From contig CACDPY010000002.1 in assembly GCA_902554765.1 (NCBI GenBank), positions 1 through 64,000 of the forward strand: DNA of 64,000 bases. Reading direction: 5' to 3'. A model generated the notes under the pieces. The model made no database searches, was not told where the DNA came from, and worked only from the letters and a program-made list of their open reading frames with translations. Made by a program: the position numbers and the translations under genes. Shown in pieces: positions 31,052-53,932 of this stretch. Origin of the DNA: an uncultured Pelagibacteraceae bacterium. Its GTDB lineage: Bacteria; Pseudomonadota; Alphaproteobacteria; Pelagibacterales; Pelagibacteraceae. Position 1 is the stretch's first letter; each line of letters opens with the position of its first letter.

Positions 31052-31054
31052 AAA

Positions 31055-31225
31055 ATGGGATTAGAACAAATAATCCCAGCAATATTTATCATAGCAGTTT
31101 TAATTTTAATACTTCCTGAGTTTTTAAGAACAAACTCAAAATTGAAACAATTTAATAAAAATCTATTCATTTGGTCTATAATTGTTGTAACAGTTGTGAT
31201 AGTTTCTTATCTTATCTTTAAATGA
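31055..31225 (+). CDS. small two-helix membrane protein of unknown function
   Basis: This 56-codon gene lies between dnaJ and dapB. It starts ATG at 31055, 3 bp after the dnaJ stop, and its TGA overlaps the dapB ATG (ATGA). The product has two hydrophobic helices, about residues 5-21 (IIPAIFIIAVLILILPEF) and 39-55 (FIWSIIVVTVVIVSYLIF), joined by a basic, polar loop. The tight junctions on both sides argue that it is translated. I do not recognise a family; an inner-membrane location is likely. Confidence 0.65.
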   Translation: MGLEQIIPAIFIIAVLILILPEFLRTNSKLKQFNKNLFIWSIIVVTVVIVSYLIFK

Positions 31226-43383: not shown

Positions 43384-44027
43384 GAAATTTTTTTATTTAT
43401 TTTTTTAATATTGAGTATAAATGAGTCATCATTGGTTAAACTTTTTTTCTCTTCATAATCCAAATCCCATTCTTTAAGCACATCATTCAGAATTTTTCTT
43501 CCACTTTTACCCATAAAAAAAATTATGTTTTTGTATTTTTTAAAATTTTCATTTACTAAATTAAGAATTATTGGCATTGGTTTAAAAGCTCTAGACATTA
43601 TTGTTCCTGTTTCAATATTTTTAACCCTAAATAGATCTTTGTGAATTATCTCTGTGTTCAAATTTAACTTTTTTGAAACCTCGTTTAAAAAAACACATTT
43701 ATGGTAGCTTTTTTCGTAAAGATTTATTTTCATATTATTTTTTAATTTTTTCATTATAATCGCAACAATCAGCCCAGGCATTCCACCCCCTGTACCTAAA
43801 TCAGAGGTTGTATTACTATTTAAATCAACAAAATCAATAATTTGTGCTGAATCTACTATGTGACGCTCTCTTATTGCATCTTTTTTGTCCTCTTTTTTAC
43901 TAATAATGTTGATTTCTTTATTTTTTTCATTAATCATGGAAATTAAGGTTTCAAAATCAGTACAAGTTTCACGTGAAACATTAAAACTCGAAATTTTAGA
44001 ATAAGAATTTAAAATTACATTTTCCAT
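43380..44027 (-). CDS. rsmG: 16S rRNA (guanine527-N7)-methyltransferase RsmG
   Basis: RsmG (GidB) methylates G527 in the 530 loop of 16S rRNA. The 215-residue product has the SAM-binding motif TSDLGTGGGMPGLIVAI (about 72-88) and the RERHIVDSAQIIDF lead-in. Near residue 18 it reads NVSRETC; VSRET is encoded by the parS sequence, as in several other bacteria. It overlaps parA by 4 bp and shares one base with mnmG. Confidence 0.93.
   Translation of the reverse strand: MENVILNSYSKISSFNVSRETCTDFETLISMINEKNKEINIISKKEDKKDAIRERHIVDSAQIIDFVDLNSNTTSDLGTGGGMPGLIVAIIMKKLKNNMKINLYEKSYHKCVFLNEVSKKLNLNTEIIHKDLFRVKNIETGTIMSRAFKPMPIILNLVNENFKKYKNIIFFMGKSGRKILNDVLKEWDLDYEEKKSLTNDDSFILNIKKINKKIS
43965..43980. 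other. parS centromere-like site inside rsmG
   Basis: The sequence AGTTTCACGTGAAACA matches the 16-bp parS consensus TGTTTCACGTGAAACA at 15 of 16 positions; the inner 14 bases are a perfect palindrome. It is inside the rsmG coding region, about 0.6 kb upstream of parA and about 9 kb from the candidate oriC. I saw no second copy while reading. Confidence 0.92.
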
Positions 44028-47473: not shown

Positions 47474-49036
47474 ATGAATAATTTAAAATATTTACAAGAC
47501 GAAACTGCAAAACTTTTAAATTTATATAATGCTAATCTTTTTGATGAGGTTGTCAGAAAAGGTAAAATTTTAATCAAAAAATTTCCTAATCAAATACTTT
47601 TTTATAATGCAACAGCATTATCTTTATCATCTCTAGAAAAACATGAGGAATCTTTGAAAATTCTTAATCAAGCGCTTAGCCTTCAACCTAACAATATTCA
47701 CGTCTTAAATAACTTGGGTCTCGTAAATAGTAATATGAATAATCTAAAAGAAGCAAGATCGTACTATGACAAAGCACTTTCTATTAATAATAATTTCGTT
47801 GATGCTTTACTCAATCTATCTCAACTAGACTTAAATGAAAATAAGACTGAAGAAACAAAAAAAAATTTAGACAAAGCGCTTAAATTTTGCAGATCCAAAC
47901 AGCAAGAAGAAATCATAAATACCTCACTAGGTTTTTACTACCAACAAATTGGCAACTTTGAAGAAGCAATTAAATGTTTCCAAATCGTAAACAAACTAAA
48001 TCCACTCAATACTTTCTCTGATAAAGCAATAAGTTTAATTCATAAATATAAAGATGAAAAAGATCCTCATCTAATTTTAATGGAAAACAAAATTTCTAAA
48101 ACCAAATCGGAACCTCATCTTCAAAGCTTATATTTTGCACTGGGTAAAGCCTATGAAGATTTAAAGAAATTTGAGAAATCATTTAAATTTCTTAAATTAG
48201 CAAACAATATTGCAGACAAAAAATTTAATTATAATATTAAAAATGATGAAAAATTATTTTTAAATATAAAAGAATTATTTAAAAATTTTAACAATAAAAA
48301 TGAATTTAATTCAGAAAGAAAAACAATTTTTATTATCGGAATGCCAAGATCTGGAACAACACTTGCCGAGCAGATAATATCCTCCCACAAACATGTGTAT
48401 GGTGCTGGAGAACTTTCTTTTCTTGAAGCAGCAATTAGAAAAAATATTTTAGATCAAAATAAATTTATAAATAATACAATTTCAAATATAGAATTTGAAC
48501 CGCTTAAAAAAATTCAGGAAGAATACTTGAATCAAGTAAATCTTTTTAATTTTAAAGAAAAAATATTTACTGATAAAGCCCCTCTTAATTTTAGATGGAT
48601 AGGAATTATAAAAATACTTTTTCCAAATTGTAAAATAATTCATTGCCAGCGAGAACCAATGGACGTATGTTTTTCAAACTTTAAAAATACTTTTACATCT
48701 AAGTCAATTTCATTTTGTTATAATCTTAACAAACTTGGTAATTATTATAATTTATACTCAGACTTAATGAATTTTTGGAAAAAAATGTTTGGAAATGAAA
48801 TCTACGATTTGTCGTATGAAAAACTTATTAATAACCAAGAAGAGGAAACTAAAAAGTTATTGAGTTATTGCGAATTAGATTGGGATGTTAATTGTCTGAG
48901 CCCACATAAAAATGAAAAGTTAGTTGCAACTGCAAGCTTAGCCCAAGTTAGATCGCCAATTTATAAGTCTTCAATAAAAAAATGGCAAAATTACTCTGAT
49001 AATTTAAAAGATTTAGAAAATTTAATTAATAATTAA
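47474..49036 (+). CDS. TPR-repeat protein fused to a sulfotransferase domain
   Basis: The 520-residue protein has N-terminal tetratricopeptide repeats (about 15-260), for example [20 protein letters not shown] and [21 protein letters not shown] sulfotransferase domain follows (about 275-515) with the 5'-phosphosulfate loop [20 protein letters not shown] and [14 protein letters not shown] as the 3'-phosphate site. It should transfer sulfate from PAPS to an unknown acceptor, possibly chosen by the TPRs. It is the only plus-strand gene between parB and hemE and overlaps the convergent rho by 4 bp. An AT-rich imperfect hairpin lies upstream at 47405-47438. Confidence 0.88.
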
Positions 49037-51824: not shown

Positions 51825-52826
51825 TTAATAATCTTTTACTATTTTGACCAAACAATCCATCATGCTGGGATCTGTTTCTGGTAAAACTCCATGGCCCAAA
51901 TTAAAAATATAAGGATGATCTTTAAATATGTCTAAATATTTTTTTGTCTCTTTTTTTAAGTTATCTTTGTCTGTTAACAACACTTTAGGATCCAAACCAC
52001 CTTGAACGGGTATCTTTATTTCTTTTAAGATTCTTAATGGATCTGTTTCATAATCAATACAGATAGCATCCGGTTTAACAATTTCACAATAATTTTTATA
52101 ATTTTTTATTCCTTTAGGAAAACATATTACTGGTGTATTTAAAGATTTAACATATTCAACCAAGTTTAATGTGGGTATATAAACATAATTTGGCAAATCT
52201 TTTTCTTCTAGAAGGCCAGCCCAGCTATCAAAAATTTGTATTATTTCAGCACCATTCTCAATTTGGTTTTTAATATGAACTTTTAAAAATTTTTCTAAAA
52301 TAATTAAAATTCTATTTATTAAAAAATTATCTTTGAAAAAATTTTCTTTAAGTTTAAGCTTAGGTGATTGTTGGTTGATCATATAAACCATAAGTGTCCA
52401 AGGAGCTCCCACAAAACCTATTGTGCTCTTGTTTTGAGTAATCTGGTTGTTGCTTACTAGTTTAATAGCTTTATAAATAGGATAAATTTTTTTAACGAAA
52501 TCTATTTCATCCAATTTTGAAATACTTTCTAAATTTAAATCTCCTAATACTGGTCCAAAATTTTTTTTAAATTCAACATTTTGGTTTAAACCATATGGTA
52601 CCATTAAAATATCAGAAAAAATAATAGCTGCATCAAATTCAAATCTTTTAAGTGGTTGTAGAGTAATCTCTGAGGATAAATTTTCATTAAGACATAATTT
52701 TATAAAATCTGGGTTTTGCCTTCTAATTTCTCTAAACTCTGGCAAATATCGTCCAGCTTGTCTCATTATCCATATAGGATTAATAGAAGTCTGTTTATTA
52801 ATTATTACTTCTTTCAATGGTGACAT
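51825..52826 (-). CDS. hemE: uroporphyrinogen decarboxylase
   Basis: HemE converts uroporphyrinogen III to coproporphyrinogen III. The 333-residue product has the signature PIWIMRQAGRYLPEFREIR, IFSDILMVPYGL, GFVGAPWTLMVYM and FNLGHGVLPETDP. It is the first gene leftward from the 281-bp origin-like gap, exactly as hemE flanks oriC in Caulobacter and Rickettsia. Confidence 0.97.
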   Translation of the reverse strand: MSPLKEVIINKQTSINPIWIMRQAGRYLPEFREIRRQNPDFIKLCLNENLSSEITLQPLKRFEFDAAIIFSDILMVPYGLNQNVEFKKNFGPVLGDLNLESISKLDEIDFVKKIYPIYKAIKLVSNNQITQNKSTIGFVGAPWTLMVYMINQQSPKLKLKENFFKDNFLINRILIILEKFLKVHIKNQIENGAEIIQIFDSWAGLLEEKDLPNYVYIPTLNLVEYVKSLNTPVICFPKGIKNYKNYCEIVKPDAICIDYETDPLRILKEIKIPVQGGLDPKVLLTDKDNLKKETKKYLDIFKDHPYIFNLGHGVLPETDPSMMDCLVKIVKDY

Positions 52827-53107
52827 ATTAATAATTAAATATAATTAATTGTATTAGTAGTATAATCTGTGAATAACGATGATTAAATTTTGTAAACATT
52901 TTATTAACATTTTCTTAACATTTAATGCTTAAAATTTATTAAATATATAAGAAAAATTGAAGCTTATTCATAAAAATCTTATTTTTTACTAAATTTCATA
53001 CATTTGTTTAATAATGTTAATAAAAGCATTGTTTTACAGGATAAATTTAAAAATGTTAAATTAGCTCAATATAATTTAAATAATAAAAAGTTATTAACGT
53101 TTAATAC
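52827..53107. other. Candidate chromosomal replication origin (oriC)
   Basis: This 281-bp gap is the longest non-coding stretch in the window. It separates divergent hemE and ppsR, the flanks of oriC in Caulobacter and Rickettsia. It contains a DnaA-box match TGTGAATAA (52868-52876, complement of TTATTCACA), a one-mismatch box TTATTCATA (52964-52972), three 11-bp phased repeats of (T/A)AACATTT (52894-52926), TGTTAATAA (53015-53023) and TTATTAACG (53091-53099). A very AT-rich stretch near 52930-52960 could unwind. Genes on both sides point away from it. Confidence 0.8.
52894..52926 (+). repeat. Three 11-bp phased repeats in the candidate origin
   Basis: AAACATTTTAT (52894-52904), TAACATTTTCT (52905-52915) and TAACATTTAAT (52916-52926) are adjacent 11-bp units, one helical turn each. 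They place TTATTAACA and TTCTTAACA, DnaA-box-like 9-mers, 11 bp apart. They may be initiator-binding iterons; a TTAA-n7-TTAA motif (52904-52918) also falls here. Confidence 0.6.
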
Positions 53108-53932
53108 ATGACTGATACATACCAAATTTATTTAATTTCGGACTCAACAGGCGAAACTTTAGATAGGATTTTTACCGCAATTAAAGCTCAATTTAAGAAT
53201 ATTAATTATAAAATAAACACTTATTCGTTTACTAGAACAGAAAATCAGATATTTAAAATTTTATCAGAAGCGGAAAGAGACAAAAAATCTATTATTTTAT
53301 ATTCAATAGTAGATAGTAATTTAGCAAAATATTTAGCAAATATTAGCAGTGAAAAAAAAATTCCTTGTTTTGGAGTTTTGGGTGATCTTATTTTAAGTTT
53401 TTCTAAATTATTAAATCAAAAAGCATCTCATGAACCAAGTGGTCAATATGCTTTGAACGATGAATATTATGGAAGAATTGCTGCAATCCAATTTACGATG
53501 AGTCACGATGACGGAAATCTTGTAAAAGAAATAGACAAATCTGATATAATTTTATTGGGTGTGAGCAGAACCAGCAAAACACCAACATCAATTTATTTAG
53601 CCAACAAGGGTTTTAAAACGTCAAATATACCATTGGTGAATGAAGATTCTATTCCCAAAAAGTTAAAAGAAAATCCCAAGATAGCTTGTGTGGTTGGTTT
53701 AAATACAGAACCAGAAAGGCTTGTTGATATTAGAAAAAATAGAATGAACACACTGAAGGAAACCGAGAACAAGTCATACACCAGTCTTGAGAAAATTAAA
53801 AAAGAAGTTGAAGAAGCAAAAAATACTTTCAAAAAATATAAATGGCCCTCAATTGATGTAACAAGAAAATCTGTAGAAGAAACAGCTGCATCAATAATAA
53901 AAATTTACGAAATTTATAAACAAAATGGTTAA
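53108..53932 (+). CDS. ppsR: PpsR-type kinase/pyrophosphorylase (DUF299; PPDK/PEPS regulator)
   Basis: This 274-residue protein belongs to the bifunctional kinase/pyrophosphorylase family that switches pyruvate phosphate dikinase or PEP synthase by ADP-dependent phosphorylation. It begins YLISDSTGETLDRIF and has the P-loop-like LLGVSRTSKTPTSIYLA and the C-terminal DVTRKSVEETAASII. Its orthologue is the RP001 gene, first on the right of oriC in Rickettsia. It overlaps maf by 8 bp. Confidence 0.93.
   Translation: MTDTYQIYLISDSTGETLDRIFTAIKAQFKNINYKINTYSFTRTENQIFKILSEAERDKKSIILYSIVDSNLAKYLANISSEKKIPCFGVLGDLILSFSKLLNQKASHEPSGQYALNDEYYGRIAAIQFTMSHDDGNLVKEIDKSDIILLGVSRTSKTPTSIYLANKGFKTSNIPLVNEDSIPKKLKENPKIACVVGLNTEPERLVDIRKNRMNTLKETENKSYTSLEKIKKEVEEAKNTFKKYKWPSIDVTRKSVEETAASIIKIYEIYKQNG

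Follow-up and report, generated by a model that had tools for sequence, protein, structure and literature searches.

The gap between hemE and ppsR is very probably where this SAR11 (Pelagibacteraceae) genome has its chromosomal replication origin. By the window we mean the whole 64-kb stretch of DNA that was analysed; it covers positions 1 to 64,000 of a 134.5-kb contig from an 879-kb genome in 39 contigs that is 70.7% complete. The candidate oriC of the original prediction is upheld by the sequence anatomy of the gap (an enrichment of DnaA boxes, a conserved element of the unwinding type, and duplex instability over 280 bp), by its conservation and synteny in relatives, by GC skew and gene strand, which switch near this place in five sampled relatives, and by the closeness of a parS-like site. 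DnaA binding, the place of opening, helicase loading, and control by DnaA dose are what we infer in addition. The prediction overlooked a DnaA-trio element and an array of boxes spaced 11 bp apart, which are the more telling elements (Table 1).

Table 1. Features of the candidate origin and its surroundings, in window positions.
Feature	Position	Strand	Evidence
oriC, whole hemE-ppsR intergenic region	52827..53107	.	length, AT content, box enrichment, duplex stability
hemE, left flank	51825..52826	-	PF01208, E 7.5e-83
ppsR (Kinase-PPPase; COG1806/DUF299, RP001), right flank	53108..53932	+	PF03618, E 7.5e-88
A/T stretch adjoining the trios, likely where opening spreads (DUE)	52827..52851	.	30-bp instability; role inferred
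DnaA-trio element TAT TAG TAG TAT	52852..52863	+	base conservation and strand-biased trio counts
4-bp spacer from trios to box, variable	52864..52867	.	30-67% conserved
DnaA box TTATTCACA facing the trios (BUS box)	52868..52876	-	mean conservation 0.93
Array of three weak DnaA boxes at 11-bp spacing	52890-52898, 52901-52909, 52912-52920	+	spacing over 125 gaps
Box-like TTATTCATA, probably no functional box	52964..52972	+	conservation 0.69
DnaA box TTATTAACA	53015..53023	-	conservation 0.96
Weak DnaA box TTATTAACG just before ppsR	53091..53099	+	conservation 0.81
parS-like site (1 mismatch), in an rsmG-like ORF beside parA/parB-like ORFs	43965..43980	.	palindrome; 9.0 kb from the gap

As had been claimed, this gap, with 85% AT, is the longest of the window, having 281 bp free of open reading frames of at least 60 aa, the next longest stretches being 244 bp at the edge of the window and 170 bp at 31052-31221. 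Its two neighbours, hemE and ppsR (COG1806), are both confirmed by Pfam and are the flanks of the Caulobacter and Rickettsia origins as well, and the ppsR product reaches a best identity of 91% with named relatives (Pelagibacterales or Pelagibacteraceae records). Pfam also bears out the predicted order to the right, namely ppsR, maf, aroE, coaE, a dnaQ-like RNase_T exonuclease, and secB. Of the hem, mnm, and par genes announced for the left side, Pfam recognises hemE, ferrochelatase, UPF0093, and mnmE, while mnmG, rsmG, rho, parA, and parB are named from their translations only. The predicted leftward and rightward gene directions are true of hemE and ppsR, which diverge, but have exceptions farther away on both sides (secB on the minus strand, an ORF at 47474-49036 on the plus strand). 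No tRNA was found in the 64-kb window, and no Rfam family reached its gathering threshold there.

The location itself is expected and not new, since the hemE-COG1806 origin is established in Caulobacter and predicted in Rickettsia, according to passages of PMC1914354, and the oriC of Pelagibacter HTCC1062 was manually identified, according to a figure legend of PMC4033161. The same passages of PMC1914354 describe the Caulobacter crescentus Cori and the predicted Rickettsia origin as AT-rich, with several DnaA boxes between these two flanks, as is the case here. Sequencing coverage in SAR11 points to a single origin and a single terminus in passages of PMC9589681, the position not being among them, and the matching passages of PMC2099444, PMC7858055, PMC7111523, and PMC6323995 hold nothing on the SAR11 origin. 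The trio element and 11-bp array of SAR11 were not found among the best-ranked literature matches listed, and this anatomy may already be in print in supplements, in DoriC, or in the BUS survey tables.

The gap was compared across relatives at 50 family loci (out of 118 genomes with a ppsR match, own included), 80 named loci, and 29 class loci besides our own (out of 42 genomes with a ppsR match, own included). A divergent hemE adjoins ppsR at 48 of the 50 family loci, 78 of the 80 named loci, and 26 of the 29 class loci. The gap measures 261-294 bp across the 48 family loci, own included, 267-284 bp across the 78 named loci, and 327-899 bp in the 26 measured class gaps vs. 281 bp here, some of these lengths being approximate where the start of hemE had to be extrapolated from a partial alignment. 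The set of 125 gaps used below consists of the window, the 78 named gaps, and 46 further family gaps; 121 are distinct, with four named gaps identical to four of the 46. Left out of the 46 were two family loci without hemE (L072 and L073), the window itself (L024), and a locus with a partial hemE match (L048), and left out of the named loci were L162, where the genes are 3,646 bp apart, and L172, where the contig ends shortly upstream. Five gaps from genus g9 complete a set of 130. Counts over these gaps are not independent, because the gaps are related by descent and four are identical between collections.

A cluster of DnaA boxes beyond chance is present at the gap. TTATNMACA occurs three times vs. 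0.17 expected from 1000 dinucleotide shuffles (P printed as 0.000), TTATTAACA twice vs. 0.07 (P 0.001), and TTATNCACA and TTATYCACA once each (P 0.027 and 0.006 in the same shuffles), this lone TTATYCACA not being special in a genome with 20 copies in 879 kb vs. 28 for the reversed control. Over the 125 gaps, TTATNMACA reaches 2.99 per gap vs. 0.22 in shuffles (13.5-fold) and is present at least once in 122, with none in the gaps of L171, L046, and L065; the reversed control ACAMNTATT is not enriched, at 0.15 per gap vs. 0.22 in shuffles. When single bases are varied, no letter outdoes that of the consensus at any position, and at position 6 the enrichments of A (14.2-fold) and C (15.1-fold) are about the same. 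A scan with sliding windows of 300 bp places the top box cluster at the gap in our window and in the samples of three relatives, G003, G035, and G040, the third box of the G040 cluster extending 4 bases into ppsR; in G017, the gap has one TTATNMACA and the top cluster is not there.

The predicted minus-strand box TTATTCACA at 52868-52876 is present and highly conserved. The second predicted box, TTATTCATA at 52964-52972, is also present, but its conservation lies below the gap mean of 0.76, and it is therefore probably not a functional box. Further 9-mers had been announced on both strands, and we found TTATTAACA at 52901-52909 (plus) and 53015-53023 (minus) and TTATTAACG at 53091-53099 (plus), where many relatives have, by eye, TTATTAACA instead. 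The conservation of the 9-mers in related SAR11 genomes, which had been proposed as a check, thus holds for some of them and fails for others, such as that at 52964.

Between the BUS box and hemE lies the DnaA-trio element, whose base conservation we took from 79 aligned gaps, equivalent to about 36 effective sequences. All four trios keep their T (97-100%), and trios 1, 3, and 4 also keep their A (91-100%), which falls to 58% in trio 2; the third base is variable in trios 1-3 and a T in 91% in trio 4. At least three of four TAN trios precede the box on this strand in 87 of the 130 gaps, on the other strand in 9, and in shuffles in about 4, and where gaps score, every quartile of the distance from hemE to the box is 41 bases. 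A score of fewer than three trios is given to 43 of the 130 gaps, to some of them because the box pattern missed variants. A strict trio-plus-box pattern matches 39 of the 125 gaps vs. none for the reversed trinucleotide. A loose version run over 61 genus genomes was rejected as not discriminating, its reversed control matching about as often.

This arrangement is like that of the basal origin unwinding system (BUS) of Bacillus subtilis, Helicobacter pylori, and others, defined in passages of PMC8287927 as a DnaA box with at most two mismatches, a spacer of 0-16 bp, and at least three NAN trios. At 52852-52876, we count one mismatch in the box, a 4-bp spacer, and four trios, a rule so easily satisfied in AT-rich DNA that the stronger evidence is the conservation and the strand bias. 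The relative orientation of trios and box also appears to be that of the BUS. The survey in the same passages (PMC8287927) gives tandem boxes as the commonest form (57%) and a spacer peak at about 10-13 bp, unlike the one box and 4-bp spacer here. An AT-rich, easily opened stretch is likewise present: no 280-bp segment of the window is less stable than that of the gap (rank 1 of 63,721), and the least stable 30 bp within the gap start at 52827 (rank 5 of 63,971), with ranks of only 370 of 63,941 and 377 of 63,901 at 60 and 100 bp.

On the other side of the BUS box stands the array of three weak boxes. Same-strand pairs of relaxed boxes over the 125 gaps are seen 147 times at 11 bp vs. 2 expected and 66 times at 22 bp vs. 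1, and at least one 11-bp pair is present in 95 of the 125 gaps vs. 2.4 in shuffles. It is the spacing that stands out, since base-level conservation of the array boxes (0.79-0.84) is slightly above the gap mean. The three-box pattern, with up to two mismatches, has its sole match in our genome at 52890-52920, without a mismatch; across 16 genomes, it has nine matches, six of them in the gap, with none in nine genomes and three matches in total for the reversed control. The array spacing of the E. coli oriC is 2 bp. Unlike that origin, the array here has three boxes with an 11-bp period, pointing away from the BUS box, and no second, opposed array was seen in the gap. With the low-affinity arrays of the E. 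coli oriC, as described in passages of PMC4285127, it has in common several weak boxes that point the same way close to a stronger one.

The evidence from skew is drawn from relatives, because our own genome is fragmented and incomplete and the cumulative skew minimum of the window lies at about 22 kb (-1.29) and not at the gap (-1.18 to -1.16). In five one-contig relatives, sampled at 27-33%, we took the skew difference between two equal chromosome arms, and the gap ranked 3 of 240 positions in G003, 14 of 292 in G035, 1 of 265 in G017, 7 of 257 in G040, and 6 of 243 in G009, with the best position 3, 69, 0, 44, and 23 kb away, respectively. For the raw skew switch, the gap is thus within the best 5% of positions in all five, relatives that are not independent because they have gene order in common. 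Most of the raw switch derives from gene direction, and once gene strand is removed the ranks become weak (83 of 240, 19 of 292, 7 of 265, 26 of 257, and 4 of 243, in the same order), a joint fit of the first four giving the gap rank 7 of 100. In all 14 genomes examined for it, the best parS-like site has no or one mismatch and is 6.9-19.7 kb away from the gap (hemE side in ten, ppsR side in four), sites with two mismatches occurring elsewhere in some of them and the reversed control, at up to two mismatches, matching in 5 of the 14. In the window alone, the single match at up to three mismatches is not significant.

A quite different explanation would be that the gap serves only as a control region common to hemE and ppsR, with boxes that tune both genes and an origin elsewhere. 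The two genes do diverge, DnaA is able to act as a transcription factor according to the abstract of PMC3193534, and conserved blocks other than boxes exist, such as ATTGAAGCTTAT; TATAAT itself, however, is not conserved, since the conserved pattern ends in TAT followed by variable bases. An argument against it comes from another genus, g9, where at five loci (L268-L272) rho, and not hemE, adjoins ppsR, and neither hemE nor hemH nor hemJ was found between rho and ppsR. Of the 8 g9 genomes searched, 7 have a distant URO-D relative (30-38% identity) elsewhere. The rho-ppsR gap of 346-353 bp nevertheless has one to three TTATNMACA boxes and a trio-like sequence, aligned with the others by eye, at all five loci, the strict trio-plus-box pattern matching at one of the five and, on the other strand, likewise at one of the five; the raw skew switch persists in G009. 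Because this box-rich, trio-like gap is kept where hemE is missing, the element seems independent of hemE, and these genomes are a natural experiment separating the origin from its neighbour genes. With the skew and gene strand of the five sampled genomes fitting an origin at the gap and a terminus set opposite, and with a parS-like site close by in 14 of 14 genomes, we regard a mere control region as very improbable indeed.

If the gap is an origin, its TAG/TAT repeats might still be ordinary AT-rich sequence, and opening might follow the classical DUE model through a generic AT-rich element, as the 85% AT, the nearly pure A/T composition at the 52827 end, and the gaps with fewer than three trios would allow. 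The 3-bp beat of the conservation, the strand bias, and the failure of the reversed trinucleotide in the strict pattern speak against this, and we consider it unlikely. The flanking genes, which are those of Caulobacter, might in turn suggest a Caulobacter-type origin under CtrA control, and there are two TTAA-N7-TTAA sites in the gap; over the 125 gaps these sites average 0.70 vs. 0.55 in shuffles, with two unrelated control motifs below expectation (0.24 vs. 0.52 and 0.42 vs. 0.56). Two sites are, however, no excess beyond chance for this gap (shuffle mean 0.75, P 0.32), and just 38 of the 125 gaps have any. In none of eight genomes does a match exceed the 350-bit cut-off of one CtrA model (the best reaches 143 bits), and with a model made for Rhodobacterales this is weak evidence; all eight match it below the cut-off, and its control matches in 12 of 14 genomes. 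CtrA control is thus, to us, quite improbable, less probable than a generic DUE. In contrast to the Caulobacter Cori, CtrA sites are in no clear excess in this gap, and an E. coli-like IHF consensus has no match in it; over the 125 gaps this consensus occurs 0.22 times per gap vs. 0.05 in shuffles, so that some relatives have one. Neither GANTC nor GATC occurs in the gap. The main box here is TTATTMACA, as compared with the Caulobacter G-box TGATCCACA given in passages of PMC4285127.

Returning to the gap as a trio-bearing origin, we propose that DnaA would bind the strong box at 52868-52876 and grow as a filament along the trios at 52852-52863 towards hemE, and that the filament would separate the strands of the A/T stretch next to them. 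The array boxes, set 11 bp or about one helical turn from each other, would gather further DnaA together with those at 53015 and 53091, so that opening would need a high DnaA level, and forks would leave both ways. The DnaA frame retains RPRQ and RDHTT, which we take to be its DNA-binding motifs and which look ordinary. Tentatively, and with somewhat more doubt than belief, we suggest a stripped, minimal SAR11 origin, in which a one-box BUS with a 4-bp spacer backs onto an array of TTATN(A/C)ACA boxes that are relaxed at position 6 and repeat every 11 bp, in phase with the helix, with no CtrA layer and with initiation timed by the DnaA level alone. Few kinds of cell on Earth outnumber those of SAR11, and this timing, if the suggestion is true, would be that of some of the ocean's most abundant bacteria. 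Metagenomic growth estimates depend on origin-to-terminus ratios, for which a base-level origin map is a fixed anchor, and the map, which holds in most gaps examined, also supplies a fragment for building an oriC plasmid.

Some minor observations concern single loci and the farther surroundings. The 3,646 bp that separate hemE from ppsR at L162 are either an insertion at the origin or a misassembly, and L168, a record titled as a Flavobacteriaceae MAG, has a SAR11-type locus (ppsR identity 86%) and is likely a mis-binned contig. The plus-strand ORF at 47474-49036 (520 aa), which lies between mnmE and rho opposite to their direction, resembles, by eye, TPR repeats plus a sulfotransferase. The strict trio pattern matched at none of the 29 class loci; four of them (L241, L252, L260, and L262) have by eye TAG/TGG-rich repeats and a possible second, weaker box before the hemE-facing box, as in a tandem-box BUS. 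The block ATTGAAGCTTAT at 52956-52967, which is not a DnaA box, is exact in 62 of the 125 gaps, and its commonest 9-mers are at least 62-fold over shuffles.
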